This document shows, piece by piece, positions 1,014 to 17,702 of a stretch of 64,000 nt of DNA. Origin of the DNA: Opitutia bacterium (GTDB lineage: Bacteria; Verrucomicrobiota; Verrucomicrobiia; Opitutales; T3Sed10-336); NCBI GenBank assembly GCA_003558065.1, contig PWMU01000079.1, positions 1-64,000 of the forward strand. The letters are read 5' to 3'. A program made the translations under genes and the position numbers. The notes below the pieces were generated by a model, which was not told the origin of the DNA, searched no databases, and worked only from the letters and a program-made list of their open reading frames with translations. Each line of letters opens with the position of its first letter. Positions within the stretch are counted from its first letter, which is position 1.

Positions 1014-2501
1014 ATGAACTGTTATTCGCCGCTTTCTCGCTCCGCTCTTTGCTTTATCTCCGTAACGGTATCGATTGTGTTAATTGGCTGGCGTCCGGTA
1101 ATGGCGCCTCCGTTTACCCTGGAAGGTCCGGGGGTGGAAACGGCTGATTTTCGGGTGACGGTTTTCGCCTCGGGCCTGGATTTTCCCCTGGGGATGGCGG
1201 AGCTGTCCGATGGGTCGATTCTCGCGACGAGCAGCGAAGGCACGCGGTTCTTCAATTCGAGCGGAAAGCTCGTCAGGTTGGTGGATTCCAACGGGGACGG
1301 CGTGGCGGATGGACCGCCTCAGGTGTTGTACGACGACCTGCCCGGTTCGTTGACTGCCGTCTGTGTCGGGGGAGACCTGGTATTTGTGATGGCGGTCGGT
1401 CGACCGCTGACGATTCTGCGCAAGGGGGATTCGCCCTCGGATCCTCTGAGTTTTGTCGGTGAGATTGAGTTCGACTACAGCGACGGATCGACGACCTACC
1501 ATGCGCATTCGGCGCTGGAATTGCGGGAAACACCGGGAGTTTCGGAGAGCTACGACTTGTTCTTTCAGATCGGGTCCGAAAGCAATTTCGAGGAATCGGC
1601 CCGGACGGCGACCCTCTCGAGCACGACGGTCGCCGATGTCGGCGGAACCCTGGCGGCGGATTCGGCCCACATGATGACGATTGCGGACGAGGGGAAGCAG
1701 GTGAGGATGACCGATGTCGTACGGATAGGCTCGGGGCTTCGCAACGCGGCCGGGGACACCTTTCATCCCGCCACCGGAGACCTGTATTTCCAGGACAATG
1801 GAATCGACGGGCTGGAGGTGGCTACCGAGCCCCACAGCGCGGACGAGCTGAATTTCATCGCCCGCGAGGAGATCGGTCAAAAACCGGTTCCCGATTTCGG
1901 TTTTCCCGACAACTACACCGCCTACCGCACCGGCGAGGTCGTCGGGGGCGAAGGGGTGCAACCGGTCATCGCCTTTCAACCGATCCCGGATCCGGATACA
2001 GGGCTGCGCAGTGAGGGACCCAACAACATCACCTTCGCCCCACCGGGCTTTCCTGACGGGCTTAACACGGGAATCTTCCTGGGATTTCACGGGATATTCA
2101 ATCAGGGCGGTTTGGACAACGACCAGAACCCGGTCGTGTACGCAGATCCCGACACCGGTGAGTATTTCCATATTATCCGGGGCCAGCAGGAGGGTGTCGG
2201 TCACTTGATTGGCCTGCATGCCACGCGCGATTCGCTTTTTGTGGCCGACCTGGTAACCGGGGGCAGCCTGAACGACGGGGCCGGTCAGGGTGTCATCTAC
2301 CAGATTCAGGCGGTGATTCCTCCGACGCCGCCGCAACTCGCGTCACGACGGATCGGGCGGGAGCTGGAACTGACCTGGGATCGGGGCGTCCTTCAGGAAT
2401 CGGATGACCTGGAAGGAGAGTGGGAAGAGGTTGAAAACGCCTTCAGTCCCTACGTGATCGAGCCCGAGGGAACACGCCGGTTTTTCCGTGCTGCTTATTG
2501 A
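1014..2501 (+). CDS. Secreted PQQ-dependent sorbosone dehydrogenase-like beta-propeller protein
   Basis: This 495-residue protein begins with a hydrophobic signal segment (residues about 8-30). The ATG at 1014 was preferred over an in-frame TTG at 975 because it places the signal at the N-terminus. The body starts with a strand pattern (FRVTVFASGLDFPLGMAEL) typical of the glucose/sorbosone dehydrogenase six-bladed propeller, followed by GDLYFQDNGID- and NNITFAPPGFP-like blades. The last 55 residues are a separate small beta module (LTWDRGVLQESDDL to RRFFRAAY) that recurs in two other secreted proteins of this window. It is probably periplasmic or surface exposed and may oxidise a sugar, but PQQ-binding residues cannot be confirmed by eye. 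The SDR gene starts 3 bases after its stop, which suggests an operon. Confidence 0.75.
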   Translation: MNCYSPLSRSALCFISVTVSIVLIGWRPVMAPPFTLEGPGVETADFRVTVFASGLDFPLGMAELSDGSILATSSEGTRFFNSSGKLVRLVDSNGDGVADGPPQVLYDDLPGSLTAVCVGGDLVFVMAVGRPLTILRKGDSPSDPLSFVGEIEFDYSDGSTTYHAHSALELRETPGVSESYDLFFQIGSESNFEESARTATLSSTTVADVGGTLAADSAHMMTIADEGKQVRMTDVVRIGSGLRNAAGDTFHPATGDLYFQDNGIDGLEVATEPHSADELNFIAREEIGQKPVPDFGFPDNYTAYRTGEVVGGEGVQPVIAFQPIPDPDTGLRSEGPNNITFAPPGFPDGLNTGIFLGFHGIFNQGGLDNDQNPVVYADPDTGEYFHIIRGQQEGVGHLIGLHATRDSLFVADLVTGGSLNDGAGQGVIYQIQAVIPPTPPQLASRRIGRELELTWDRGVLQESDDLEGEWEEVENAFSPYVIEPEGTRRFFRAAY

Positions 2502-2504
2502 GCC

Positions 2505-3302
2505 ATGACTGCTTCGAAGGAATCCCCTGTGCCCCGGAACGGCTCGCTTTTCGACCTGGCCGGAAAGGTTATTCTCGTGACCGGTTCGACCGGCGGGCTC
2601 GGATCGGCGATCGCGCGCGGGCTTGCCGAGAACGGGGCGACCGTTGTCCTGAACGGACGCAATCGCGAGAAGCTGGATGCCACCGTCGAAGGCTTCCGGG
2701 AGGCCGGCCTGGACGCGCACGGGGCCGTTTTCGATGTCACGGATTTCGACTCCATTCATGCGCGGATTAAGCGGATCGAGAGCGGGATTGGCCCGATCGA
2801 AGTGCTGGTCAACAACGCTGGAATCACCCGGCGGGCCAGCCTGGAGGTTCTGGAGGAATCCGATTGGCGCGAAGTCATCGATACCAACCTGACGGCCGCC
2901 TTCCTGGTGGCCAAGGCGGTTGTTCCCGGGATGATCGAGCGCAGGCGGGGCAAGATCATCAATATCGGCTCGCTGATGAGCGAACTCGGCCGGGCAACCA
3001 CCGGTGCGTACGCCGCTTCCAAGGGCGGGATCAAGATGCTGACGCGGGCGATGACCGCGGACTGGGCCGTCCACAACATTCAGGTGAACGCGATTGGGCC
3101 CGGGTATTTTGCCACGCAACTGACTCGTCCGCTTGTGGAAAATCAGGAGTTCACAGATTGGCTCAACAAACGGACGCCGGTGGGACGGTGGGGGCGGCCC
3201 GAAGAACTGATCGGAACGGCCGTGTTTTTTTCCTCGGCGGCCTCCGATTTCGTCAACGGACAGATCCTCTACGTCGACGGCGGCATCCAGGCGGTGCTGT
3301 AG
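2505..3302 (+). CDS. SDR-family oxidoreductase, gluconate 5-dehydrogenase-like
   Basis: A classical short-chain dehydrogenase of 265 residues. It has the cofactor motif TGSTGGLG near residue 27, NNAG near residue 103, the catalytic Ser in NIGSLMSE, and YAASK as the Tyr-Lys pair, followed by NAIGPGYFATQLT and the C-terminal FVNGQILYVDGG typical of this subfamily. Length and motifs fit gluconate 5-dehydrogenase / 2-deoxy-D-gluconate 3-dehydrogenase enzymes that interconvert gluconate and 5-ketogluconate with NAD(P). The ATG lies 3 bases after the preceding stop. With the gluconokinase gene 4.5 kb downstream, this supports a gluconate or ketogluconate branch. Substrate assignment among close SDRs is uncertain. 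Confidence 0.85.
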   Translation: MTASKESPVPRNGSLFDLAGKVILVTGSTGGLGSAIARGLAENGATVVLNGRNREKLDATVEGFREAGLDAHGAVFDVTDFDSIHARIKRIESGIGPIEVLVNNAGITRRASLEVLEESDWREVIDTNLTAAFLVAKAVVPGMIERRRGKIINIGSLMSELGRATTGAYAASKGGIKMLTRAMTADWAVHNIQVNAIGPGYFATQLTRPLVENQEFTDWLNKRTPVGRWGRPEELIGTAVFFSSAASDFVNGQILYVDGGIQAVL

Positions 3303-3330
3303 CCTCCGGCCTCTCCCTTCGCCGGAGGCT
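3301..3330 (+). terminator. Strong hairpin after the SDR gene
   Basis: A perfect 10-bp inverted repeat (AGCCTCCGGC and GCCGGAGGCT) with a 10-base loop begins inside the SDR stop codon. No run of T follows, so it may be a processing or attenuating hairpin rather than a true intrinsic terminator. Confidence 0.5.
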
Positions 3331-3538
3331 TACGGAGGCAGTTTGCCGGATGAAGTACGCCGAAGACGGAATCCGCTGGGTCAACGATGTAAACGATAAA
3401 GGCGTTGAGGGGTTCCGGTTCTCACAGCATGCTGCCTGTTATTGATGAATGACCCCGGTCCGGATGTGCATTGAATTGCTTGAATCGCCGGTTCGGCTTT
3501 CCATGAATTGCCTTCAACCCTAACCCACTATAAGACCC
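3331..3538. other. Intergenic region before the glycine-rich protein gene
   Basis: About 210 bases without a convincing gene. A 31-codon open frame starting near 3351 has no recognisable product. The region presumably carries the promoter and leader of the gene starting at 3539; I see no clear -35/-10 pair. Confidence 0.4.
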
Positions 3539-6500
3539 ATGAAAGCGACCCTTCGTATCGCCCGTTCGTACATCCCCGTTTATTTGCTCTGTGCGGGTTT
3601 CCTTTTATTTATCTTCAATCCGGCCGCCGCCCAGGAGGAAGAGCCTCTTGTCCTCGTCGAAGAGGATTTTTCGGAGTTTGAGGTGGGCGGGCAGCCCGAG
3701 CTCGACGCAGTCCGCCCTAACAATAACGTCGGCGCCGACGAGTCATTCCCGATTCCGTTCGGGAGTGCGGTCGGAGCGCTTGTGGTCGGGCCGGAGAGCG
3801 AGCCGGCCTCGAGTCTTCCCAACGGCGACAACCAAAGCCTCCGCCTCTACGACTACACCGATGGGGATATTGCCTATGCGGGGATGAACTTTGTGGATGT
3901 GGCCAGCCGCCGCGATGTCAGGCTGGATTTTCGCTTTCAGCGTTCGACTTCCTTCAGCCGGTTCAGCGATGAGGACGGCCTTTATGTGACCATCGGCGCA
4001 CGCGGCGAAGTCGGCGAAGTCACCCACACCGACGCGGGGAATCGCAACTTTGAATTACGCCTCTTCAACGACGGCGGCTACATCGCCGCCGGCGCGACCT
4101 CGGAGAGCGGAAACTTCGAAACGGGCGGGGACCTCGGCGTGCATGATGTTTCGATCTTTGCCAATGCGGACGCCGAGGAGTCCCTGGAATACGAAGGCCC
4201 GCAGGGGTCGGTCACTTTGCCGGGGCTCGCGGTGAACGTCTACATCAACGGCAGTCGTGTGGTCGAGGAGATGCAGATGCGTCACGACCGGCGCGTGGGT
4301 AAAGTGGCTTTCATGGCCGGCGACGATCCGGACAAGGCCGAAATCGATTTCATTATCGACGATGTGGTGATATCGGAACTTCGCCGCGAGGATCCGCCGG
4401 CCCTGCCGTTCCCGGAGTTTTTCGAGGATTTTTCCGAGCGTGAAGTCGGCGAGCAGCCGCGGGATCTTTTCGGCACCGGCAACAACATCCGTCCGAGCAG
4501 CAATTCGGGCCAGGACGCGGAGCTTCCCCTGCAGGGTTCCGGGGCGGTCGGGGTCGTGGTGGTCGACGAAACCACCGAACCGGTCCCGGCCATCGACGGG
4601 CGCAGCCTGCGGATGTACGACTACAGCGGCGATATCGCGTTCGCCCAGCACCGCTTTCTACGCCAGCCCACCGAGGAGCGTCCCGATATCCGGTTCGATT
4701 TCCAGTTTCGGCGCTCGGCCGGGTTTGCGCGCACCAGTGACAGTGAGCGGGTGATGGTCTCCATGGGCGAGCAGGCCGACGGGGACACCTTGCGCACGAA
4801 CGCGCCAAAGGCCTTCGAGGTCCGCATCTGGAACGATGGAATGATCGGAACCGGCGCCAGCGGGACCTCCGACGAATTCCGCTACGAGGACGAGGATGCC
4901 GAGGAACTCGGCGTGCACGACGTCACCGTTTACGCCAATTCCGGCGAGAACGTGCTCGTCTTCGAAGATCTTAACGAGGAGGAGCGCTCGCTCGATCCCT
5001 ATTCGTTCACGACCTTTGTCAACGGCGAGTTGATCGACGAGAACCGGGGCTTCCGCGGCGGAAGCGACAACACCCCGCTCGGATCATTCGCCATTCAGAC
5101 GGGAACCGGAATGGCCGCGGAGAACATGGATATGGTGTTCGACAACATCCGAGTTTCCCAATTCCTGGGCGACGACGAACTGGACCTCGGGCAACCCGGG
5201 GTGCCGGACGAGATTCTGTTCTCTCAGGTTCCCCTCGGGCGCACCTGGGGAAGCGATCCCATGCCGGGCGCCGAAGTGGCGATACGCGCGGAGGTGAGGG
5301 ATGCGTTCAATGTTCCTTTGGCCGGGCGCGAAGTGACCTTTTCCGTCGACACCGGCGGCGGTTCCCTGGCCGAACCGACGACGGTCGAGACCGATGTGGA
5401 CGGTGCGGTGAGAGTCGTCTACACCACCGCCGAAGGGGATCCCGAAACGGCGTCGATCCGGGCCTCGGTCGGGGAGATTGACGACCTGTGGGACGTGGCT
5501 TCCACCCTCCCGGGGCCGGTGACCGATATCGAAGCCACAGGCGGCAGTGTTTCGACCTTCAGCGACGAGCACGGGGAGTTTCGTGTTCACACGTTCACGA
5601 ACGAGGGCGCCGATACCTTTGAAATCACCTCCGGTTCGGGCGAGATCGAGGTCCTCGTGGTCGCCGGCGGCGGCGGCGGCGGCGGCAGCAGCAATAACCG
5701 CTGGGGCGGTGCGGGGGCCGGCGCCGGCGGTTTGATCCAGACGGTGCTCGGCGCCGAGTCGGGAACCTACGATCTGGCGGTGGGGGCCGGCGGCGCCGGC
5801 GGAGTCGGGGACAGCAACGCGGGAGAGCAGGGCGAGGACTCGGTTTTCGGCGACCTGGTGGCCCTGGGGGGGGCCCGGGCCCGCGGACAGAATAACCAGT
5901 ACGACGGCGGCAGCGGCAGCGGCGGCGCGCCGCAGAGCAGTACGGCTGCACATCATGGCGGCAGGGGGCTGCAGCCGGAGTCGGCCTCCGGCGGGTTCGG
6001 CAACGACGGCGGCTGGGGTACCGAAGCGATCGGCAACGACCGTGCCGGAGGCGGCGGGGGCGGTGCCGGGAGCCCCGGCGGCGATGCCGGCCCGAGTACG
6101 GGCGGTGACGGCGGAGACGGGTGGCTGTCCTTCATCACGGGCACCGGCGTGTACTACGCCGGCGGCGGTGGTGGCGCCGGACGCCATGTCGGCGGCGAAG
6201 GCGGCCTTGGCGGCGGCGGCGGCGGTACGGTCGACGGCGACGGTGAGTCTGCTGCTCCGAACACGGGCGGGGGCGGCGGCGCTTCCAGTCTCGGCGAAGA
6301 CCGCACCGGAGGCGACGGCGGATCGGGCATCGTGGTCGTCCGCTACAAGATCGGCGAGGCGCCCGACGTTTCCGATCCGGATCCGGACCGGGTGCCGACT
6401 GTCACGGCGGGCCGCGTTTCCGGAACCGACGACCTTCGCCTGTCCTGGCTGAGCCTGGAAGGCCAGACCTACCTCCTCCAGCGTTCGGAGAATCTGACTG

Positions 6501-6616
6501 ACTGGGAGGACACCGATGCTTCTTTCGAGGGCGACGGCACCGTTCTGGAGCATATCCTTGAAGGCCTCGGGGACGATCCTCGTGAATTCTTCCGCTTGCT
6601 GATTGAAGAAGATTGA
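3539..6616 (+). CDS. Large secreted protein: two laminin-G-like repeats, Ig-like domain, glycine-rich domain
   Basis: A 1025-residue exported protein. Residues 1-31 are a signal peptide ending PAAAQ. Residues about 41-282 and 296-545 are two homologous beta-sandwich repeats that open with EDFSE...EVG.QP and share SLR.YDY and ELGVHDV-type blocks, LamG/concanavalin-like in pattern. Residues about 556-659 look like a bacterial Ig-like (Big_1/invasin) domain (AEVRDAFNVPLAGREVTFSV). Residues about 661-936 form a glycine-rich domain that opens with EIEVLVVAGGGGGGGSS and closes with GSGIVVVRYK, the pattern of bacterial Gly_rich_2-type domains. The last 65 residues are the Phe-Phe-Arg tail module seen in other secreted proteins here. 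It is probably a cell-surface or matrix protein, perhaps carbohydrate binding. It stands alone between two hairpins. Confidence 0.8.
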   Translation: MKATLRIARSYIPVYLLCAGFLLFIFNPAAAQEEEPLVLVEEDFSEFEVGGQPELDAVRPNNNVGADESFPIPFGSAVGALVVGPESEPASSLPNGDNQSLRLYDYTDGDIAYAGMNFVDVASRRDVRLDFRFQRSTSFSRFSDEDGLYVTIGARGEVGEVTHTDAGNRNFELRLFNDGGYIAAGATSESGNFETGGDLGVHDVSIFANADAEESLEYEGPQGSVTLPGLAVNVYINGSRVVEEMQMRHDRRVGKVAFMAGDDPDKAEIDFIIDDVVISELRREDPPALPFPEFFEDFSEREVGEQPRDLFGTGNNIRPSSNSGQDAELPLQGSGAVGVVVVDETTEPVPAIDGRSLRMYDYSGDIAFAQHRFLRQPTEERPDIRFDFQFRRSAGFARTSDSERVMVSMGEQADGDTLRTNAPKAFEVRIWNDGMIGTGASGTSDEFRYEDEDAEELGVHDVTVYANSGENVLVFEDLNEEERSLDPYSFTTFVNGELIDENRGFRGGSDNTPLGSFAIQTGTGMAAENMDMVFDNIRVSQFLGDDELDLGQPGVPDEILFSQVPLGRTWGSDPMPGAEVAIRAEVRDAFNVPLAGREVTFSVDTGGGSLAEPTTVETDVDGAVRVVYTTAEGDPETASIRASVGEIDDLWDVASTLPGPVTDIEATGGSVSTFSDEHGEFRVHTFTNEGADTFEITSGSGEIEVLVVAGGGGGGGSSNNRWGGAGAGAGGLIQTVLGAESGTYDLAVGAGGAGGVGDSNAGEQGEDSVFGDLVALGGARARGQNNQYDGGSGSGGAPQSSTAAHHGGRGLQPESASGGFGNDGGWGTEAIGNDRAGGGGGGAGSPGGDAGPSTGGDGGDGWLSFITGTGVYYAGGGGGAGRHVGGEGGLGGGGGGTVDGDGESAAPNTGGGGGASSLGEDRTGGDGGSGIVVVRYKIGEAPDVSDPDPDRVPTVTAGRVSGTDDLRLSWLSLEGQTYLLQRSENLTDWEDTDASFEGDGTVLEHILEGLGDDPREFFRLLIEED
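5664..5690 (+). repeat. GGC triplet tract encoding poly-glycine
   Basis: A short run of GGC codons in the glycine-rich domain encodes GGGGGGG. Its triplet unit would let slippage change length without breaking the frame. Confidence 0.7.
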
Positions 6617-6629
6617 GCGAAGGAAACGG

Positions 6630-6669
6630 GATTGCGGCGGCGGCTTAACGGCCGCTGCCGCAATCTTTT
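6630..6669 (+). terminator. Intrinsic terminator of the glycine-rich protein gene
   Basis: A 15-bp GC-rich stem (GATTGCGGCGGCGGC paired with a near-complementary arm ending GCAATC) with a short loop, followed by TTTT. It lies 13 bases after the stop codon and is one of the clearest rho-independent terminators in the window. Confidence 0.8.
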
Positions 6670-6690
6670 GGTTCCAGGCAGATTGACGAT

Positions 6691-7806
6691 ATGAAGTTTT
6701 TTCTGAAATCCGACCCCGGTCGGATTCCGTTTCCGCGTGACGAAACACTGGCCAGGGCGCGGAACGCGCTTTCGGTGACTCCGTTTCACATCACCGACGT
6801 CGCGGCTCACATGAGCGAAGGCGGCATTCACGATTACTATTCCAACGGAGACTACTGGTGGCCGAATCCGGAGACGCGGGATGGCCTGCCCTACGTGCGG
6901 CGCGACGGGGAGACCAATCCGGATTTTTTCTTCGCGCACCGCAAATTCATCAGGAATCTCAGCGAGCACGTGGCCCACCTGGCCGGCGCCTATTTGCTTA
7001 CGGGCGAAGACCGGTTCGCGGCCAGGGCGTGCCGGTTTCTCAAGGAGTTTTTTCTGGACGAAGCAACGAAGATGAATCCGCACCTTTGCTACGCCCAGGC
7101 CATCCCCGGGGTTTGTCCGGGACGGGGTGTCGGGATTATCGATACGCTGCACCTGATCGATATCCCGGTGGCCGTGGAGGCGATGCGGGAATCGCCGGAG
7201 TTTCCGGATGAGGTTGTGACTGGCCTTGTGGCCTGGTTTTCGGAGTACCTCGAATGGATGACCACCCACCAGTACGGGATCGACGAGAGGGAACAGAAAA
7301 ACAATCACGGCATTTGCTGGTCGGTTCAGGCGGGGGTGTTCGCCCGGTTTACGCGGAACGTTCGCGTCATGGATTACCTGCGGACGCGCTACCGCGAGGT
7401 GCAGCTTCCTGGACAAATGGCCGAAGACGGAAGCTTTCCGGCCGAGCTCGGACGCACGAAACCCTACGGGTATTCGATTTTCGTATTGGATAATTTGGTA
7501 ACGCTCTGCCACGTCCTCTCCGAACCCGGAAACGATCTCTGGGAATTCACTCTCGAGGACGGACGCGGCATCCGGAAGGGCATCGATTTTATCGTTCCCT
7601 ACATGCGCAAGAAAGAGACCTGGCCCCACCCGCCGGATGTCCAGCACTTTGAAGGCTGGCCCGCGCGGATCTCGTTTCTCCTTTTCGCCGGTATCGCCTT
7701 CGGAGACGACGGGTACGTCGACCTTTGGCAGCAACTTCCCGAACCCGACGACGACGAAGTCAAACGCAACACCGCGATCAAACAGCCGCTTGCCTGGCTG
7801 CGGTAG
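6691..7806 (+). CDS. Alginate lyase superfamily protein, no signal peptide
   Basis: A 371-residue alpha-helical protein of the alginate-lyase family (PF05426 / PL5-like fold). It shows YWWPNPETRDGLPYVRRDGE near residue 54, the family's substrate-cleft asparagine-histidine motif KNNHGICW near residue 205, and a degenerate PAELGRTKPYGYS segment where typical members read GRQPYEIxRTRSxxYH. There is no signal peptide, so it is predicted to be cytoplasmic, unlike the paralogue at 10957. It may act on oligosaccharides after uptake, as a lyase or as a related eliminase or hydrolase. The start 22 bases after the preceding terminator is well placed. Substrate is not determined. Confidence 0.8.
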   Translation: MKFFLKSDPGRIPFPRDETLARARNALSVTPFHITDVAAHMSEGGIHDYYSNGDYWWPNPETRDGLPYVRRDGETNPDFFFAHRKFIRNLSEHVAHLAGAYLLTGEDRFAARACRFLKEFFLDEATKMNPHLCYAQAIPGVCPGRGVGIIDTLHLIDIPVAVEAMRESPEFPDEVVTGLVAWFSEYLEWMTTHQYGIDEREQKNNHGICWSVQAGVFARFTRNVRVMDYLRTRYREVQLPGQMAEDGSFPAELGRTKPYGYSIFVLDNLVTLCHVLSEPGNDLWEFTLEDGRGIRKGIDFIVPYMRKKETWPHPPDVQHFEGWPARISFLLFAGIAFGDDGYVDLWQQLPEPDDDEVKRNTAIKQPLAWLR

Positions 7807-7842
7807 GCGTGGGGCGGTTGTACCGGGGAAGAGCGTTCGGGA

Positions 7843-8358
7843 TCAGCGACCCTTCCGTATCCGTTCCAGCATTTCCAGAACGAGCGTTTCCGGCGGTTGC
7901 GACGCGTCGAGGCAAAGAGCTTCTTCCGCCCCGGGCTCCTCGAGGGCGGCGAATTGGGAGCCGGCGATCGAGGGGCCCGCAAAATGATCTTCCCGGCCGG
8001 CCAATCGTTCTGTGGCCTTTTCGGGAGAAAGCTTCAGATAAACCAACAGCACCGGCTCTCCCGGCCGGACCAGGATTTCCCGGTACTTTCGTTTTAGCGC
8101 GGAACACGTGAAAACGGCCGGGGTGTCTTCCGCAAGGCAGCCTTCGATCCGTTCCCGGATCCGGTGGAGCCACGGCAGCCGGTCGGCGTCGGTCAGCCCT
8201 TCACCGCGGCGCATCTTTTCTTTCGCTCCCGCCCCGTGAAAGTCGTCTCCGTCGAAAAAAAGAGCGTTCAGGCGACCGGCCGCGAGCCGGCCCAGCGTCG
8301 TTTTCCCGCATCCGGCGACTCCTGTGAAGACAATGATTTTCGCGGCTGGTCCGGTCAT
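7843..8358 (-). CDS. gntK: Gluconokinase
   Basis: A 171-residue kinase of the thermoresistant gluconokinase family. It has the P-loop GVAGCGKTT near residue 14, FFDGDDFHGAGAKEKM (the FxDGDxxH gluconate/Mg motif), a Leu-rich LTDADRLPWL segment, and CSALKRKYR. These are the diagnostic blocks of GntK/IdnK, which phosphorylates gluconate to 6-phosphogluconate with ATP. The frame stays open further upstream, but the ATG at 8358 gives the normal family length. It converges with the lyase gene ending at 7806. The LacI regulator lies upstream on the same strand, 113 bases away, so the two may share a transcript. Confidence 0.92.
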   Translation of the reverse strand: MTGPAAKIIVFTGVAGCGKTTLGRLAAGRLNALFFDGDDFHGAGAKEKMRRGEGLTDADRLPWLHRIRERIEGCLAEDTPAVFTCSALKRKYREILVRPGEPVLLVYLKLSPEKATERLAGREDHFAGPSIAGSQFAALEEPGAEEALCLDASQPPETLVLEMLERIRKGR

Positions 8359-8471
8359 GGCGATGCGGAGTATCGAGAGTCGAGTGGGGGAGTGTCGAGT
8401 GCGGAAAAGTCTGACCGGTATTGGGGGAACCGCGATCCGAAAGGTCGTTCTTTCTGAAGGAGACCGTGACG
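8359..8471. other. Spacer with degenerate GAGTGTCGAGT repeats
   Basis: The spacer between lacI-type gene and gntK contains imperfect tandem copies of a GAGT(G/A)TCGAG unit around 8369-8402. No gene or obvious promoter is visible. Confidence 0.5.
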
Positions 8472-10643
8472 TTAAACTGCTCTTCGGTGCCCGGAATATC
8501 CGGCAGTGCGCTGTTTCGGAGGCCCCGCGGTTTTTCCCGGATTCCAGACCCCATCGACCATCAGCGTGCCGGGATTGTCGGGAATACCGTATTCGTTTCG
8601 TTCGATGAGGTTGATCAGGATATCGGTTGCCCGGGCTCCCAGGAGTTCGGTGTTCTGGTAAATGCCGGAGAGGGATCCGGTGCGTTTCGGACAGCTCAGG
8701 CTGACGAAACCGAGATCCCCGGGGACAGCATACCCCCAGGTGCGCAATCGGTGGAGCAAAGGGCTGGCGTTGGGGCTCACAATGACTTCCGGCCGGACCT
8801 TTTCCATCCATTGCGACACCACCTGCTTCGTCCATTCGCCGGCAACCAAGGGCTTAAGCGGTGCGAGGCCGCCGAGTTCGCGGCACTCCATCAGGTAGGC
8901 GGCCGACCAGCGGTTCTGTACATTGGCGGTTGCGGAGGTGCTCTTCAGCGCCAGGCCGATTCGCCGGTAGCCCAGGCGCGCGCATTCGCGTACGGCCCGT
9001 CGCATGGAACTGTAATGGTCGTTGACGGCACGGTGGATCGGCGGATGACTCAGGGTGAAACCGTAAGCGACGAGGCAAAACCAGTCCCAGTGAAGATCCA
9101 GCTTAAGATCCGGAGCGGGCAGCGAAGCGAACATCAGTCCTTGAATGGACCGACGGCGGAGCTCTTCGGAAAACCGAGGATCGTCTCTTCTCACCGGCGG
9201 AAGCCAGATTTCCTCCATACGGAAGCCCCGTTTTTCCGCTCGTGCCCGGGCCTCGGTGAAAAAAGCGGCAATGGTCGGGGTCACCCGCCGCCAGCCGTCC
9301 CGCGTCGGGAAACTGGTAACGAAGGCGAGCCTAGGCGGCTTTTTCGGAAGCTTTCCGGAGCGTTTCCCGGTCATGAGAAGAGAGATGTAGGGATTGTTTC
9401 GGTACCCGAATTTTTCGGCCGCCTCACGGACTCGTTTTCGAGTGGCGGGCGGAATCTTCGTGCTGTCCCGGAGGCTCAGGGAGACGGTTGAGACATGCAT
9501 GTTCAGTTCCGTGGCAAGGTCGCGCATCGAAACGTAGTGTCCTCGTTTGTGCCGAACCGGGATCGCGGCGACACGCTCCGACGCCTGCTCGACCAGCGTC
9601 TTTCCCGGGTTCCAAACACCCTTGACAAAAAGCGTGTTGGAGAAGGCGGGGCTTCCGCGCTCATTGCGGTCAATGGAGTCGACCAGCATATCCACCGCAC
9701 GGGCGGCCAGAATCGCAGGGTTGGGATAGATGCCGGAGACCGTTCCGTCGAGTGTGGGACTGTTCAAGCTGATCAATCCAAGCTCTTCCGGCACCTTCCA
9801 CCCACCGGTCTCGATCCTTTCCTTCAAAGACCCCGCCCAGGAAACGACCAGTGCTTCGGGACGGTGTTTCCGCAGCCACGCGAAGAGTGTTTGATCGTCC
9901 CACCGTTCCATCAGAAGCGGCGGGAGGCGGTGCGACCTTTGAGAGCGCTCCTGCTCCATCAGGTACGCGGCCAGCCAGCGGCGGTTGATTCTTGGGTTTT
10001 CGTCATCGGCAAGCACCAGTCCTATCCGGCCGCAGCCGCTGCGATGACAGCGTTCCATGGCAGTCATCAGGGATTGAAACGGGTCGCAGGCGACCCGGTT
10101 GAGGGCCGGGCTCCCCACGGCGAAACCAACGCTCACCACCGAAAACCTGTTCCATTCCAGAATCAGTTCGTCACGAAGTTCCGGATACGCAGCCAGTAGA
10201 ACGCCGGAGATATTGCGGGTATAAAGAATTCCGGTGGCGCGCCGGCCGGTCATTCCCTTGTCGCTGAGGTTAAACGTGTCCAGCCGGTATCCTTTCTCCT
10301 CGGCGCGCCTCTCCGCGCTTTCGAGAATCGGATGCAGGAAAGACGACGAAAAACCGGTAAATCGGGGTTCGGCCGCGGTGCACAGGGCGAGGACCGGACG
10401 GGTGACCGATGGGCGGCGGCCTTTGGTCCGCTCGCGGCGAATGGCCATCAGGGCGGAAACGTAGGGATTGCGTTCGTAGCCCAGACGATTGGCCGCCTGA
10501 ATCACCTTGTCCCGGGTGGCGGGGGATATTTTCGGACTTCTGTTGAGCGCCAGAGAAACGGTCGCGGTCGTAACCCCGGCCGCGGATGCCACATCCTGCA
10601 TCGTGACCGGCCTGCGGGGTCTGACTGGGTCATTCTTCGCCAT
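8472..10643 (-). CDS. Double-length LacI-family transcriptional regulator (two HTH plus two ligand domains)
   Basis: One uninterrupted 723-codon frame encodes two complete LacI-type repressors head to tail. Unit 1 has a LacI helix-turn-helix at residues about 13-60 (VTMQDVASAAGVTTATVSLA) and a periplasmic-binding-protein-like domain to about 350. Unit 2 repeats this with an HTH at about 370-420 (YVSMRDLATELNMHVSTVSL) and a second ligand domain to about 705. Both units end in the block GVWNPGKT and share SGIYxNxxxLxARAxDxLxxxIxRNE. Normal LacI proteins are about 330-360 residues and work as dimers; this chain would be an obligate pseudo-dimer or a two-operator binder. It is divergent from the secreted lyase gene and upstream of gntK, so it probably controls this sugar locus. 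Confidence 0.9.
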   Translation of the reverse strand: MAKNDPVRPRRPVTMQDVASAAGVTTATVSLALNRSPKISPATRDKVIQAANRLGYERNPYVSALMAIRRERTKGRRPSVTRPVLALCTAAEPRFTGFSSSFLHPILESAERRAEEKGYRLDTFNLSDKGMTGRRATGILYTRNISGVLLAAYPELRDELILEWNRFSVVSVGFAVGSPALNRVACDPFQSLMTAMERCHRSGCGRIGLVLADDENPRINRRWLAAYLMEQERSQRSHRLPPLLMERWDDQTLFAWLRKHRPEALVVSWAGSLKERIETGGWKVPEELGLISLNSPTLDGTVSGIYPNPAILAARAVDMLVDSIDRNERGSPAFSNTLFVKGVWNPGKTLVEQASERVAAIPVRHKRGHYVSMRDLATELNMHVSTVSLSLRDSTKIPPATRKRVREAAEKFGYRNNPYISLLMTGKRSGKLPKKPPRLAFVTSFPTRDGWRRVTPTIAAFFTEARARAEKRGFRMEEIWLPPVRRDDPRFSEELRRRSIQGLMFASLPAPDLKLDLHWDWFCLVAYGFTLSHPPIHRAVNDHYSSMRRAVRECARLGYRRIGLALKSTSATANVQNRWSAAYLMECRELGGLAPLKPLVAGEWTKQVVSQWMEKVRPEVIVSPNASPLLHRLRTWGYAVPGDLGFVSLSCPKRTGSLSGIYQNTELLGARATDILINLIERNEYGIPDNPGTLMVDGVWNPGKTAGPPKQRTAGYSGHRRAV

Positions 10644-10671
10644 GAATACGGATTCTCCAAAGGATATCTAT

Positions 10672-10702
10672 GACCGATTCCATTCGATTGCAATGGCTGG
10701 TC
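10672..10702. promoter_or_regulatory. Nested inverted repeat upstream of the double-LacI gene
   Basis: GACC/GGTC (10672-10675, 10699-10702) flanks CCATT/AATGG (10680-10684, 10692-10696). It lies about 30 bases upstream of the regulator start and could be an autoregulatory site, but the arms are short and the spacing asymmetric. Confidence 0.25.
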
Positions 10703-10762
10703 AACTATTTAAACGAGAGACTGCCTGCATTCGTGCGCCGCGCCGCCTACGGTTGGCAAAAC

Positions 10763-10778
10763 TGAACACCGATGTTCA
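10763..10778. promoter_or_regulatory. Candidate LacI-type operator TGAACACCGATGTTCA
   Basis: A 16-base palindrome with perfect 6-bp arms (TGAACA/TGTTCA) around a CG-containing centre. This is the architecture of LacI-family operators. It sits in the divergent region between the double-LacI gene and the secreted lyase gene. Assignment to this regulator is inferred from position. Confidence 0.5.
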
Positions 10779-10956
10779 TTCACCAATAAATGTTTTCAAA
10801 CCCCGCATTCGACCATGCACCCGTTCTCATCGGCACGCCCCCGATCCGGCGTGTTCAACCTGATCGAATTGCTCACGGATAAGCAGGAAGCAGCAGGGCG
10901 TTGGGAAACGGCAGGATAACTTCAGGCATTTTAAAACCCGGTATACTTTGGAATCG

Positions 10957-12336
10957 ATGTTGACCTCTTTATTTTATTCAACGCCTCGAAATGAATCGGG
11001 AAGCCGCGAGAGAACGGCGATCTCTTTCGCGTTCTCTTCGCGGCCTGCCGTATTCACCCATCGTTTACGGGTTGGCGGGGTTCCGCTCCTTGTTCTTTCC
11101 TGCCTGGCGTCCGGTTTGGCAGTTGATGCGTCGGCCGGAGAGTCCGGGTCCGGAAGCAGTCGGGACGCACTACCGGAAACCCTTTTCCTGCGTCCGGAAG
11201 CCCTGGCTGCACAAAAGCAGCGCCTGGAAGCGGGCGATTCTCATGTGGAGGCGGCTTTCGACGAGTTGATCCGGCGGGCGGAGGAAGCTTTGGAGCAGGA
11301 GCCGGTCACCATTGTGAGCAAGCCCCAGACCCCGCCGAGCGGCGATAAGCACGATTATATGAGCCTGGGGCCCTACTGGTGGCCCGATCCGGACTCGGAA
11401 GACGGGCTGCCGTACATCCAGCGGGACGGGGAGGTGAATCCGGAACGCTACGATTATGACCTGCCGCGTTTGGACGCGGTGACACGCGCCGTGCGCGATC
11501 TCGGCCCCGCGTATTATTTCAGCGAAAACGAGGAGTACGCCGAACACGCTGCCTTGCTGTTGCGCACGTTCTTCATCGACGTTGAAACCCGTATGAACCC
11601 GAACCTTAAGTACGCGCAAATCCGGCGCGGCCATGGGGAACTGAATCCGGGTGGTATCATCGAAACCACGCGCTTCCGCGATCTGATTGACTCGATTCTT
11701 TTGCTGAAGGGATCGGAAGCCTGGACAAACGAAGACCATACCGCTTTGAAGCGTTGGTTTGGAGACTATACCGATTGGCTGGTCAACAGCGAGCACGCCC
11801 GCGAAGAGGCCGAAGCCGCGAACAATCACGGAACCTGGTGGGCCTACCAGGCGGTTCTCTACGCCCTTTTTTCGGGGAAGAACGACGTCGCGCTCGAAGT
11901 CCTGAAAACCATCCCGGACCGGATCTCGGACCAGATCGAGCCCGACGGCCGCCAGCCGTACGAGATTGTCCGAACGCGTTCCTTTCATTACCACGATTTC
12001 AACAACCGGGGCCTTTTGCGGCTGGCCCGCCTGGCCTCCCATGTCGATTTCGACCTGGCTTCGTTCGAGACCGACGACGGGCGCGGTATCCGTACCGCCG
12101 TCGAGTTTCTGATCCCTTACGCCACCGGCGGGAAGGAATGGGAGTGGGAACAAATCTCAGACATTCGCTATAACAACGTCGCGCGCCAGTTTCGCCGGGC
12201 CTCCGTTGTTTTTGAAGACCCGAAATTTGAACGAGCGATCGAGCGCTTGCCGGACGGGGGCAAGGGTCATTTGCACAGCAGCGTGCGCCTGCTGGATCCC
12301 CCGCCGGAACTCGAAATAGAAAGCGGCTACCGATAA
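10957..12336 (+). CDS. Secreted alginate lyase superfamily protein (PL5-like)
   Basis: A 459-residue protein with an N-terminal hydrophobic stretch (VPLLVLSCLASGLAVDASAG) after a long polar lead, read as a signal peptide. The ATG at 10957 was chosen over a TTG at 10948. Family blocks are intact: YWWPDPDSEDGLPYIQRDGE, ANNHGTWWAYQ, and GRQPYEIVRTRSFHYH, which carry the asparagine, histidine, arginine and tyrosine residues that form the catalytic cleft in PL5 alginate lyases. It probably depolymerises an acidic polysaccharide in the periplasm or outside. The cytoplasmic paralogue at 6691 shares this architecture. Divergent from the double LacI gene with a palindrome between, it is the best candidate target of that regulator. 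Confidence 0.85.
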   Translation: MLTSLFYSTPRNESGSRERTAISFAFSSRPAVFTHRLRVGGVPLLVLSCLASGLAVDASAGESGSGSSRDALPETLFLRPEALAAQKQRLEAGDSHVEAAFDELIRRAEEALEQEPVTIVSKPQTPPSGDKHDYMSLGPYWWPDPDSEDGLPYIQRDGEVNPERYDYDLPRLDAVTRAVRDLGPAYYFSENEEYAEHAALLLRTFFIDVETRMNPNLKYAQIRRGHGELNPGGIIETTRFRDLIDSILLLKGSEAWTNEDHTALKRWFGDYTDWLVNSEHAREEAEAANNHGTWWAYQAVLYALFSGKNDVALEVLKTIPDRISDQIEPDGRQPYEIVRTRSFHYHDFNNRGLLRLARLASHVDFDLASFETDDGRGIRTAVEFLIPYATGGKEWEWEQISDIRYNNVARQFRRASVVFEDPKFERAIERLPDGGKGHLHSSVRLLDPPPELEIESGYR

Positions 12337-12481: not shown

Positions 12482-13525
12482 GTGATTGATCGACTCAGAA
12501 ATCAGAAAAAAAGTCCGGATCGCCCCCCACGAATCAGCCTTGCCGTAGGGCCGTGGCTTCAGTCGGTTCTGTTCGATGATCGATCGTACGCTCGGCTCCA
12601 GGCCGCGGGCGAGTTGCGTATTCAACAGTCTGATCGGCTTTCGGACAAGGAGCTGGCGGACTGGATGAAGGATACCAACATCCTGATCACCGGCTGGAAA
12701 TGTCCGAAGATCGAAAGCTGGATGCTCGACCAGGCGCCCGGGCTTGATCTCGTCGCCCACAGCGCGGGGAGCGTGAAGACTCTTCTGCCTCTCGATGCGT
12801 ACGGACGCGTCACAGTCGTCAGCGCCGCCGCTGCAATGGCACCGGCTGTGGCCGAACTGGCGCTTTCCGCCATTTTGATGATGCTTCGCCGCCCGCACCA
12901 GTACGACGCCGGTATCCGCGAAGGAACACTGAAAGCCTGGGGTAGCTCGTCGGGCGAAATTCTCGGGAGGGAAGTCTGCGGCAGCCGGCTGCTTGTCGTC
13001 GGAGCCAGCCGGGTGGGCCGCTCGTTGGTTTCCTTTGCGAAAGCCCTTGGCGCCGACGTTCGTGTCAGCGATCCCTACCTCGCTTCCGGCGACGCGGCCG
13101 ATATGGGCGTGGTCAACGATTCCCTCGACGCCCTGTTACCCTGGTGCGATGTTCTCTCTCTGCACACGCCCCTGACAGAGGAGACCCGGGGACTGATCGG
13201 GCCCGGGCAATTGGCGCTCCTGCGCGACGGCGCGCTTGTGGTGAACACGGCGCGCGGCGCGCTCATGGATCAAGGAGCTTTGCTCAGAGAGCTGCAGAAC
13301 GGGCGGCTCAACGCTGCGCTTGATGTGTTCGAGAAGGAGCCGTTGCCCGCCGGGGACCCGTTGGGCTCGATTGATAATGTGCTGCTTCTTCCGCATATGG
13401 GCGCCGCAACCGAACAGGCCCGTCGGCGCCAGGGGGAGTTGGTTGTCGAGGAGATCGAGCGTTTTATGACCGGCCGGCCCCTGCGCCATGCCGTCGACGT
13501 CGAGCAATTGGCAATCCTGGCATGA
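12482..13525 (+). CDS. D-isomer-specific 2-hydroxyacid dehydrogenase
   Basis: A 347-residue NAD-dependent dehydrogenase. The Rossmann motif reads VVGASRVGRS near residue 178, with an Asp acceptor in VSDPY. The catalytic triad is visible as Arg in NTARGALMD, Glu in FEKEPLP and His in LLPHMG. These define the phosphoglycerate/glyoxylate dehydrogenase superfamily; the exact 2-keto acid cannot be read. The start is a GTG. The next gene starts 43 bases downstream and a third follows without a gap, so this is likely the first gene of a three-gene sugar operon, perhaps reducing a keto-sugar acid released by the lyases. Confidence 0.85.
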   Translation: MIDRLRNQKKSPDRPPRISLAVGPWLQSVLFDDRSYARLQAAGELRIQQSDRLSDKELADWMKDTNILITGWKCPKIESWMLDQAPGLDLVAHSAGSVKTLLPLDAYGRVTVVSAAAAMAPAVAELALSAILMMLRRPHQYDAGIREGTLKAWGSSSGEILGREVCGSRLLVVGASRVGRSLVSFAKALGADVRVSDPYLASGDAADMGVVNDSLDALLPWCDVLSLHTPLTEETRGLIGPGQLALLRDGALVVNTARGALMDQGALLRELQNGRLNAALDVFEKEPLPAGDPLGSIDNVLLLPHMGAATEQARRRQGELVVEEIERFMTGRPLRHAVDVEQLAILA

Positions 13526-13568
13526 AGAAGCAGCAACGAATGTTCCGCCTGTTCTGCGACAACCAATC

Positions 13569-14471
13569 ATGAACGCGAAAAATTCCATGAACGACCGATG
13601 GATGGTTTTCAGCAAGCATCTGTGGGGCCCGTCGCTGGATGAAACCGGGCGGCGGCTGGCCGAGATGAACGTTGGCGCGATCGATCTGACTGTTCGGCCC
13701 GGCGGCCATGTGGAGCCGGAACGGGCGGCCGATGACTTGCCGGCCGCAGCGGAGGCTCTCGGCGAGCACGATGTCCGGATCGGGATGATCACCACCCAGA
13801 TCACGGACGCGACGGAGGCGACGACGGAATCCATTCTGCGGACTGCTTCCCGGCTCCGGATCCGGTACTACAAGCTCGGTTACTGGCGTTACCACGGCTT
13901 CAGATCCATCAAGTCCCGGCGTGGCGAAGTCGCCGCCCGCCTCAGGGACCTCGCTGCCTTGAATCTTGAATTCGGCATCCACGGCGGTTTCCACAACCAT
14001 TCGGCCGATTTCTTCGGTGCCCTGCCGGGCGACACCGAGGCCGTTCTCGAACAGGTGGCCCCCGAAGCCATCGGCGTCTACTTCGATCCCGCCCACGCAT
14101 CCATCGAGGGTTCTTCGTATGGCTGGCTGATGGGAATGGATCTGCTGGCGGACCGGATCACGATGCTGGCGGTGAAAGACTATCGATGGATACCCAACAC
14201 CGGCAGGCACCAGGCGGGCCGGCTTTACAGTTCGGAGTTTTGTCCCCTGGGCGAGGGCAATACCTGCTGGCCGTCTGTTGTGGAGTGTTTGAATGAGATC
14301 GGGTTTAACGGTCCCGTGTCCTTCCACAGCGAATACCAGGGGCCCCACAGTTTTCAGGATCTCAGTGTCGACGAAGTGTTCGAACAAACCCGGAAGGACG
14401 TGCAGCAGTTTGCATGTTGGACGGAGGCCGCGCGCGGCAGGTCGGGTCAGATTGGAGTTGGCGGTCCCTGA
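13569..14471 (+). CDS. Sugar phosphate isomerase/epimerase (xylose isomerase-like TIM barrel)
   Basis: A 300-residue TIM-barrel protein of the AP-endonuclease-2/xylose-isomerase-like family. Metal-ligand blocks are visible: HGGFHNHSADF, YFDPAHASIEG, AVKDYRW and SFHSEYQ, matching the His/Glu/Asp ligands of inosose isomerase, tagatose epimerase and hexulose isomerase relatives. The reading frame extends into the preceding gene, so ATG 13569 was taken as start. It is followed directly by the solute-binding protein gene (stop TGA abuts ATG). It probably isomerises a sugar or sugar acid in the same pathway; the substrate is unknown. Confidence 0.8.
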   Translation: MNAKNSMNDRWMVFSKHLWGPSLDETGRRLAEMNVGAIDLTVRPGGHVEPERAADDLPAAAEALGEHDVRIGMITTQITDATEATTESILRTASRLRIRYYKLGYWRYHGFRSIKSRRGEVAARLRDLAALNLEFGIHGGFHNHSADFFGALPGDTEAVLEQVAPEAIGVYFDPAHASIEGSSYGWLMGMDLLADRITMLAVKDYRWIPNTGRHQAGRLYSSEFCPLGEGNTCWPSVVECLNEIGFNGPVSFHSEYQGPHSFQDLSVDEVFEQTRKDVQQFACWTEAARGRSGQIGVGGP

Positions 14472-16478
14472 ATGCCGGCGGGAACAAGACAGGTAACCGC
14501 CGCTGTCGCCGGCGTGGTCGTGTTTGTCGGCCTGGTGTTGCTGGTCGCGATACTGGGGCGCGGCATGTATTACCTCACTTATGTCGGGGCTTCCGCGGAA
14601 CGGGAGCTCGAACTCCTGGAAGCGGACGGTTCCCCGCGCGCTCCGATCGGTCACCACCGTGTCGCGGAATGGAACGGGGAACGGGTTTTCGGTGAAGCGC
14701 CCGAACTCGGGAGTCTGGTCGAGGCGGGGGCGCTCCCGCCGGTCGAGGATCGTCTTCCGGAGAATCCCCTGGTGATTGATCCACCTGAACAGATAGGGCC
14801 GTACGGCGGCGTGTGGCGGCGGTTTGGCACGGGTCCCGAAGACATCAGCGCCATGACGGCCGTTATGTACGAGGTCCTGTTTCGCTGGGACCCGATGATG
14901 GAGGAGATACTGCCCAATCTCGCCACGGACTGGGAGGTGAGGGAGGACGGCAGAGTTTATGTGTTCCACCTCCGCCGGGGAGTACGTTGGTCGGATGGCG
15001 AGCCTTTTACTTCCGGGGATCTGATGTTCTGGTACAACCATGTCCTCACTAACAGCGATCTTTCCCCCGCGCCCCACCGGGCTTTCGTTCGGGGAGGAGA
15101 AGTGATGGATATGGAGGCGCCCGACGAGTACACGGTAAAATTCCGCTTTGCCGAGCCGCACGGACTTTTCATGCGCTGGATCGTCGAACACGTAACCCGC
15201 CAGATGCTCGAATATCCAGCGCATTACTTCCGCCGGTTTCATCCGGATTTTCAGGATGAAGAGACCTTGAGCGCGCGGGTGCGGGCGGCGGGATTCAGTT
15301 TCTGGTATCAGTATTTCGAGGATAAAGCCGAATGGCGAAACACGGAACGGCCAACGCTCACGGCCTGGGTTATTACGAGGCCGCCGCCCGCACGGCGAAT
15401 CGTGTTTGAAAGGAACCCGTACTACTGGAAGGTCGACAGCGACGGCAATCAGCTTCCCTATATCGAGCGAAAAACGTATCAGATCTCCGAGCGCGAGGCC
15501 ATCAATCTCCACTTTATGCGGGGGGAAATGGGGGTCGAGGACCGTCATGTCCTGCTCAGAAACTATCCGCTGCTCAAGGAGTTCCGGAAACGCGGCAACT
15601 ACCGGATCCATGAGTGGGTTGCCGAGGAAGGTTCGAGCGCGATCATGCCCAATCTCAACCACCGCGATCTTGAGATGAAGGAGGTGATCGGCGATCGTCG
15701 GTTCCGGTTGGCGCTTTCCCACGCCATCAACCGTGAGGAGATTCGCGAAGCGGTCTATTTCGGCCTCGGCCGGCCCAGGCAGATTACTCCCGCGGCCACC
15801 TCCCCGCTTTACGATGAACGCTTGGCTGTCGCTTACACTGAATTCCGGCCGGAAGAAGCCGAACGGCTCCTGGATGAGATGGGGCTCGACCGACGGAACA
15901 AAGAGGGCATCCGGCTGCTCCCGGGCGGGAAACCGTTGAGTCTGACGATCGAAATGTTTCCGTTACTCGGCGACATGGAGACCCTGAACCTCGTGGCCGA
16001 CCACTGGAAGCAGGTGGGTGTCGATGCCGATGTCCGCCTGCACGCCCGCTCACTGTTCTACACCCGAATGCCCGCCAGGCTCCACGATGTGGGGGTCTCC
16101 AGTATCAGCCAACTGCTCACCCCCTTGTTGGACCATCGGTTTTTTGTTCCGTATCATCCCACGGCACCCCGGCACGCACTCGCCTACAGCAACTGGTTTC
16201 TCTCGGACGGGGAGCGTGGCGAGCGCCCTCCGCCGGAAATGCTTCGTGTCATGGAGCTGTACCGGGAAATCCAGGACACCGTCGATTTGGACGAGCAAAT
16301 TCGGCTTGGAAGACGGATTCAGGAGATCAATACGGAGAACCTCTGGGTCATCGGCCTCGTTGGGGATCTCCCCGGCCTGGTGCTGGTGAACAACAGCTTC
16401 AAAAACGTCCCGTCCGACGCGATCCTCCACGCCAACGTGGGAATGACGGCTCCCGAGTGCTATGCGGTCGAGGAATAG
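14472..16478 (+). CDS. Family 5 ABC-type solute-binding protein, membrane anchored, orphan
   Basis: A 668-residue extracellular solute-binding protein of SBP_bac_5 type. Typical blocks are DWEVREDGRVYVFHLRRGVRWSDGEPFTSGD, RNPYYWKVDSDGNQLPYIE and RRFRLALSHAINREEI. Instead of a lipobox it has one long N-terminal hydrophobic helix (residues about 8-30) with no evident cleavage site, so it is probably anchored in the inner membrane facing the periplasm. These proteins usually bind oligopeptides, and sometimes oligosaccharides, for an ABC importer. No permease or ATPase gene is present nearby. Its ATG directly follows the TGA of the isomerase gene, so translational coupling is likely. Confidence 0.85.
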   Translation: MPAGTRQVTAAVAGVVVFVGLVLLVAILGRGMYYLTYVGASAERELELLEADGSPRAPIGHHRVAEWNGERVFGEAPELGSLVEAGALPPVEDRLPENPLVIDPPEQIGPYGGVWRRFGTGPEDISAMTAVMYEVLFRWDPMMEEILPNLATDWEVREDGRVYVFHLRRGVRWSDGEPFTSGDLMFWYNHVLTNSDLSPAPHRAFVRGGEVMDMEAPDEYTVKFRFAEPHGLFMRWIVEHVTRQMLEYPAHYFRRFHPDFQDEETLSARVRAAGFSFWYQYFEDKAEWRNTERPTLTAWVITRPPPARRIVFERNPYYWKVDSDGNQLPYIERKTYQISEREAINLHFMRGEMGVEDRHVLLRNYPLLKEFRKRGNYRIHEWVAEEGSSAIMPNLNHRDLEMKEVIGDRRFRLALSHAINREEIREAVYFGLGRPRQITPAATSPLYDERLAVAYTEFRPEEAERLLDEMGLDRRNKEGIRLLPGGKPLSLTIEMFPLLGDMETLNLVADHWKQVGVDADVRLHARSLFYTRMPARLHDVGVSSISQLLTPLLDHRFFVPYHPTAPRHALAYSNWFLSDGERGERPPPEMLRVMELYREIQDTVDLDEQIRLGRRIQEINTENLWVIGLVGDLPGLVLVNNSFKNVPSDAILHANVGMTAPECYAVEE

Positions 16479-16649: not shown

Positions 16650-17129
16650 TCAGTACTCGATGCGGTCGGGGTTCTGAAGCCAGGCTTCAAAGACGCGAAG
16701 GCCCGTTTCGCGCCGGCTTTGGGTCCAGTTGAGTTCCCTTTCTGGCCAGTCTTTTCGGATTTCGGCGAGGATCTTCCCGTCGTCGAATCCTGCTCGGGCG
16801 GCGTCTTCGCTCCGACAGGCGAATACCAGGCGATCGATCCGCGACCAGTAAATCGCGGCCAGGCACATCGGGCAGGGCTCGCAGCTGCTGTAGAGCGTGC
16901 ATCCGGTGAGGACATGTGTGTCCAGATTTCGGCAGGCGTCCCGGAGAGCGACAATCTCGGCGTGGGCCGAAGGGTCGCGCGAGGAGACCACTTGATTCCA
17001 GCCCTCGCCGACCAGGGTGTCTTCTCGGGTAATCACCGCACCGAAGGGACCCTGACGCCCGTCGCGCGAATGCTCCTCAGCAAGCGAGAGGGCGTGCTCC
17101 AGCCAGGACTCGTCGCGGGTTCCCGGCAT
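16650..17129 (-). CDS. Guanine deaminase-like cytidine/deoxycytidylate deaminase family protein
   Basis: A 159-residue zinc deaminase. Zinc and proton-shuttle residues are present in HAEI (near residue 56) and CEPCPMC (near residue 83). The downstream SEDAARAGFDD segment resembles the Bacillus GuaD subgroup more than the tRNA adenosine deaminase TadA. Predicted reaction: guanine to xanthine in purine salvage. The start codon abuts the stop of the upstream DUF6624-like gene, so the two are co-transcribed. TadA-like activity is the main alternative. Confidence 0.8.
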   Translation of the reverse strand: MPGTRDESWLEHALSLAEEHSRDGRQGPFGAVITREDTLVGEGWNQVVSSRDPSAHAEIVALRDACRNLDTHVLTGCTLYSSCEPCPMCLAAIYWSRIDRLVFACRSEDAARAGFDDGKILAEIRKDWPERELNWTQSRRETGLRVFEAWLQNPDRIEY

Positions 17130-17702
17130 TTAGTGAGAGTGCCATCGATGGAGCGGTTCATCGACCCAGGCCGGGGTGATGAAATCGGGACTCTCGGGGG
17201 CGGTTTCGCCATTCCTCCGGGCGCGTGTCTCGAGTTCACGGAGAGTGGGCACGTCCCATCGGGCGCGCTCCCGGTCGTTGGTTTGTGGATCGACATCCCA
17301 AAGGTGTTGGCCCTCTTCGTCGGCTATCGTGCCGGTTCCGTACTTCTGTGGCATTCCCTGACGCATCAGCCACCGGTCCAGCGACGCGGCGGCGAGCCAT
17401 CGGGCCGGACGGTGGCCCAGTTTCGCTGCGGCGACGGCCAGGGTGTGCGTTTGCCAAATGTCGTCGATGTTGTCGCTCCGTTGAAAAATGACAGCGGCGC
17501 GGTAGTAATCCTCCGGCGCGGTTATACCTCCGGATTCAATCAGGGCGGATGCCCGTTCCCGCCGCCTGATTTCGCGTTGTCGGAGCTCCCAGTGCTCGGG
17601 GGTTCCGTAGGCTGTTGAGGTTCGCTTCTCGCTTTGATCCGCCCGGAATAGACTCAACAATTCTTCGTTCATCGCGGTTAACTCTGGATGGATTGGCGTC
17701 AC
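17130..17702 (-). CDS. DUF6624-like hypothetical protein
   Basis: A 190-residue soluble protein. The core APEDYYRAAVIFQRSDN...HTLAVAAAKLGHRPARWLAAASLDRWLM followed by GMPQKYGTGT matches the pattern of DUF6624 proteins, which have no established function. An internal ATG at 17672 (MNEELLSLF) gives an alternative start after a short polar lead. It precedes the deaminase gene with no gap. Confidence 0.7.
   Translation of the reverse strand: MTPIHPELTAMNEELLSLFRADQSEKRTSTAYGTPEHWELRQREIRRRERASALIESGGITAPEDYYRAAVIFQRSDNIDDIWQTHTLAVAAAKLGHRPARWLAAASLDRWLMRQGMPQKYGTGTIADEEGQHLWDVDPQTNDRERARWDVPTLRELETRARRNGETAPESPDFITPAWVDEPLHRWHSH

Follow-up and report, generated by a model that had tools for sequence, protein, structure and literature searches.

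The gene at 8472 to 10643 (minus strand) of the window, the 64,000-nucleotide stretch of Opitutia bacterium DNA analysed in this study, encodes two complete LacI units in one protein of 723 amino acids, and this fusion is conserved in relatives. Members of the LacI/GalR family usually have one unit per chain and form dimers of identical chains, which is a usual, not a strictly defining, trait; the window protein departs from it, with two units showing 37% mutual identity. Since two different DNA-reading heads are kept in a conserved fusion, a covalent heterodimer, as proposed in the preliminary description, is the most likely reading, and since the joined form is conserved in relatives, mostly by polysaccharide-degrading genes, the protein probably works as a single unequal pair. 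On balance, we lean towards a single-chain LacI-family repressor, in which a covalent unequal pair would control an acidic-polysaccharide locus.

The reading frame starts with ATG and runs through 723 codons with no internal stop. A Pfam search of the whole protein found PF00356 (LacI) twice and PF13377 (Peripla_BP_3) twice. When the halves were scanned alone, the N half scored 60.4 bits for LacI and 38.6 bits for Peripla_BP_3, and the C half 31.4 and 42.1 bits, respectively, all above the curated Pfam cut-offs of 27 bits for LacI and 26.5 bits for Peripla_BP_3. The first HTH (10467 to 10604, residues 14–59; Pfam) is followed on the minus strand by the first ligand-binding core (9597 to 10433, about residues 71–349), a 21-amino-acid linker (9534 to 9596, residues 350–370) with low AlphaFold2 (AF2) confidence at residues 355–368, the second HTH (9393 to 9530, residues 372–417; Pfam), and the second core (8529 to 9359, about residues 429–705). 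The limits of the cores were taken from the Peripla_BP_3 matches (residues 551–682 in the second core) and the AF2 secondary structure, and the block GVWNPGKT closes both unit 1 (residues 342–349) and unit 2 (residues 698–705). Each unit therefore has an HTH above the curated cut-off and a Peripla_BP-like core, which AF2 predicts as alternating helices and strands. Neither a stop or frameshift between the units nor a LacI match in one half only was found; the single frame, the doubled domains, the shared end block and the diverged ligand domains that had been described from the letters all stood. In a PF00356 search of the window's whole genome, 19 HTHs scored above the cut-off in 16 proteins, three of which (the window protein and those on contigs C88 and C147) carry two HTHs each.

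A protein search of relatives gave full-length fused homologues at 61, 50 and 45–49% identity, and with ORF reading the count of further fusions on independent contigs and genomes rose to six, 44–60% identical to the window protein. The seven fusions, 697–746 amino acids in length, are distributed over four genomes of one family: three in the window genome (C43, which is the window; C88, locus L021; and C147, L022), two in a congener (C184, L024/L035; and C400, L025/L038), and one in each of two other genera (L026/L036 and L027/L037). The window protein is thus not the lone oddity it had appeared to be, but belongs to a small family in which the fusion predates its carrier genera, and the question of whether homologues are also paired across related genomes is answered positively. 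From these relatives, we infer that the carrier family is T3Sed10-336 of GTDB, soda-lake Opitutales now described as Verruconatronaceae, a group of haloalkaliphilic alginate users (PMC13274419); LacI is not mentioned in the main text of that description. As far as sampled, the fusion is specific to this one family: no fusion outside it was found in partly overlapping draws of 373 genomes from the order, 388 from the phylum and 384 from the class, where the other strong matches that were read were single units or adjacent pairs, and the plasmid records searched gave single LacI matches only. We found no description of a natural LacI-LacI fusion in the open-access literature.

The seven independent fused copies, in which the joint contains no stop, rule out an assembly artefact. 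The wider explanation, that the frame is artefactual or that separate translation or processing yields the two units, is very improbable; unfused neighbouring LacI pairs in the same genomes and, in the window protein, an in-frame ATG where unit 2 begins, preceded by GAGGA at a distance of about 11 nt, would be in line with it, but this GAGGA is absent from the other six fusions and an internal start would cut the HTH.

In a tree of 97 rows, all seven N halves grouped together (100/97), as did all seven C halves (100/99), and neither clade included a free-standing protein. The branching order, ((C147,C400),(window,(C88,C184))),(G006,G004), was identical in both clades. The separate N and C clades with matching branching order therefore indicate one old fusion that was inherited and copied, which fits a single event that predates the divergence of the genera, after which the two halves were inherited and duplicated together. 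A recent internal duplication was rejected, as the halves of the window protein are only 37% identical and each half is closest to the matching half of the other fusions; N and C halves shared about 39% identity on average, whereas the N halves shared 48% and the C halves 53% with one another. Placing the N and C halves as sisters, corresponding to an origin by tandem duplication, gave an AU p value of 0.41, so that the two units may derive from either an old tandem duplication or two neighbouring paralogues.

Side-by-side LacI genes could have been the raw material for such fusions. Adjacent separate LacI genes occur in the fusion genus (L023 and L028/L040) and in other Verrucomicrobiota (L039/L045, L043/L069 and L029). 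The two genes of L023 (G000, C128) lie at 1307–2380 and 2411–3442, and those of L028 (G001, C248) at 6323–7477 and about 7480–8508, on the same strand as each other in each pair. The L023 and L028 pairs are orthologous and adjoin beta-helix or heparinase-like genes; their G004 orthologues are not adjacent, being on different contigs. All these unfused pairs resemble the two fused units in being same-strand LacI genes in a row, but they have stop codons between the genes, whereas the fusions have one frame. L069/L043 and L029 had seemed to be full-length matches and were rejected as fusions, each being in fact two adjacent genes. In the L039 and L029 pairs, the recognition residues are identical in both heads, unlike those of the fusions. 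L023 and L028 are close to the C-half clade in the 97-row tree, but the unfused pairs form two clades of their own, and for this reason they are not established as the direct ancestor.

All four domains of the fusions are under purifying selection. The dN/dS values, calculated by NG86 on the orthologous pairs C88/C184 and C147/C400 and rough on account of high dS, were 0.04–0.25 over both HTHs and both cores (0.04–0.06 for HTH1, 0.16–0.23 for HTH2 and 0.14–0.23 for the cores), and about 0.6–0.7 for the linker. The linker is 20–25 amino acids long in all seven fusions, while its sequence drifts. The low values of the domains and the fixed length of the drifting linker thus indicate that heads and cores have been retained, and the linker retained as a spacer.

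Y17 and Q18 of LacI are the most important residues for altering the binding of lac repressor to its operator (PMC1464816). At these positions, head 1 of the window protein carries T,A and head 2 carries V,S, and the alignment gave A,S for the N half of the G004 fusion. The two heads differ at positions 17–18 in every one of the seven fusions. Only about 4% of background LacI head pairs share the same two residues; since unrelated LacI heads usually differ too, what the difference shows is two specificities rather than selection in their favour. The hinges of the window protein read YERNPYVSALM in unit 1 and YRNNPYISLLM in unit 2, both with the hinge leucine that aligns with L56 of LacI and L54 of PurR. 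In the orthologues L022 and L025, the N-half hinge has His in place of this leucine (SPYISAHM).

The His in the N halves of these two paralogues speaks against the covalent pair and would be compatible with a pseudo-dimer, in which one unit binds DNA specifically and the other, with a degenerate head, serves as a partner or second sensor. The weaker Pfam score of the second HTH in the window protein (31.4 vs 60.4 bits) points the same way. We nevertheless consider the pseudo-dimer improbable, as both HTHs score above the cut-off, the HTHs of the fusions are as similar to one another in the N halves (56% identity) as in the C halves (55%), and both HTHs are under purifying selection.

The genomic setting agrees with the preliminary description, which had placed the gene divergent from a lyase and upstream of gntK. 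A GntK/IdnK-type gluconokinase gene (7843 to 8358, minus strand; TIGR01313, 140 bits against a cut-off of 113.75) lies 113 nt downstream of the stop of the double LacI gene on the same strand. A gene with an Alginate_lyase domain (PF05426; 10948 to 12336, plus strand; start codon uncertain) is divergent from the double LacI gene and is a likely target of the repressor, and a second Alginate_lyase-domain gene (6691 to 7806, plus strand) lies beyond gntK and is convergent with it. The plus-strand genes at 12482 to 16478, encoding a 2-hydroxyacid dehydrogenase, a TIM-barrel isomerase-like protein and a family-5 ABC solute-binding protein, probably belong to the same locus as the divergent lyase gene. 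Neighbours of the other fusions include a Chondroitinas_B-type (PL6-like) lyase, beta-helix proteins or GH43 enzymes, and further a pectate-lyase-like protein with DUF4955 and a family-1 solute-binding protein; no lyase family was found among the nearest genes of the G004 fusion. Given these lyase, beta-helix and GH43 neighbours, a role in the use of acidic polysaccharides is likely for most copies, and the lyases together with the gluconokinase suggest uronates as effectors.

Operators of the LacI family are typically even palindromes with a central CG (PMC4052901). The best palindrome of the divergent region, TGAACACCGATGTTCA (TGAACA...TGTTCA; 10763 to 10778), is of this type, almost symmetric and present as a single copy in the 4.13-Mb genome. 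Since about 5% of the shuffled versions of the region contained a palindrome as good with a central CG, TGAACACCGATGTTCA is a candidate operator only. A promoter scan of 10500–11100 detected nothing. Upstream of the starts of the C88 and C184 fusions, a different element, TTTAACCCGTTGAA, is common to both in 14 of 14 bases (L021 1127–1140 and L024 2358–2371); it is the only exact copy in each of the two genomes and is conserved in just that orthologous pair. No consistent half-site asymmetry was found among the operator candidates.

AlphaFold2 modelled the window protein with a pLDDT of 83 and a pTM of 0.78, values that suggest that the two units are arranged in a defined way. The same procedure applied to the G004 homologue gave a pTM of 0.46; the packing of the units was therefore not reproducible, and the arrangement is not established. 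The covalent heterodimer of the preliminary description is thus supported in part: the conserved fusion and the differing heads make it the most likely reading, whereas the packing expected of a pseudo-dimer appeared in one AlphaFold model and failed in the second. The best fold matches were PurR, CelR, RbsR, CcpA and LacI, and a PDB profile search at 1e-20 gave no match. LacI, PurR and CcpA, among the nearest solved structures in both sequence and fold, have the same HTH, hinge and periplasmic-binding-protein-like core as each fused unit, but they carry one unit per chain and form non-covalent dimers, in contrast to the two diverged units per chain of the fusion.

The main rival explanation is an intermolecular dimer, in which the N core would pair with an N core and the C core with a C core of another chain, giving a four-headed repressor with two different homodimeric operator specificities and possibly DNA looping. 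The LacI tetramer binds two operators and can loop DNA. Such a dimer would account for the complete LacI unit, head included, that each half retains, for a long and freely drifting linker, and for the differing heads, which two separate palindromic operators would lead one to expect; the near symmetry of TGAACACCGATGTTCA, for which two different heads are not needed, and the failed packing of the G004 homologue also favor it. However, the pTM of the window protein modelled as one chain, the confinement of the linker to 20–25 amino acids, and the presence of the candidate operator only once in the window argue against the four-headed form, and we regard it as rather unlikely.

Under the preferred reading of a covalent unequal pair, two LacI units would have been fused once in this family, and the two cores of one chain would pack together as in an ordinary LacI dimer, so that the two heads, with their different recognition residues, may touch the half-sites of a single operator, one each. 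The operator would then be freed when a sugar, most likely a uronate or oligo-uronate from the neighbouring lyases, occupies one core or both. On one side, the double LacI gene together with gntK, and on the other the divergent genes for the alginate lyase, dehydrogenase and transporter would be the probable targets. A more far-reaching version, which we offer as tentative, is a natural lineage of single-chain LacI heterodimers with an asymmetric operator and two ligand signals, which the ancient joining of a duplicated repressor pair would have fixed and which would later have multiplied for different polysaccharide loci.

LacI is a textbook model for the divergence of duplicated repressors, and mixed dimers of old and new subunits are part of the problem. 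The fused lineage is a natural experiment in which the mixed dimer would be fixed, and it might open the way to asymmetric operators and to logic based on two signals. Single-chain TetR and other engineered single-chain dimeric repressors likewise join two units through a flexible linker into one molecule, but they are man-made and of another family, whereas the double LacI is natural, old and LacI-type; the 20–25 amino acids of its linker represent a naturally tested length for single-chain LacI designs. In a simulated model of lac-repressor duplication, heterodimers and asymmetric operators arise among diverged repressor units that owe their operator choice to residues 17 and 18, as in the fusion, but the subunits are free and the successful paths go back to palindromic operators, while the units of the fusion are joined (PMC1464816). 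Direct comparisons are possible among the seven fusions and with the unfused pairs that share their genomes.

Long frames without a Pfam match were also observed near the locus, at 16719–17618 and 975–2501 of the window. Large proteins with Gly_rich_2 (glycine-rich) and Big_1 domains are encoded near two of the double-LacI genes, at 3539–6616 of the window and at 2487–6050 of L024.
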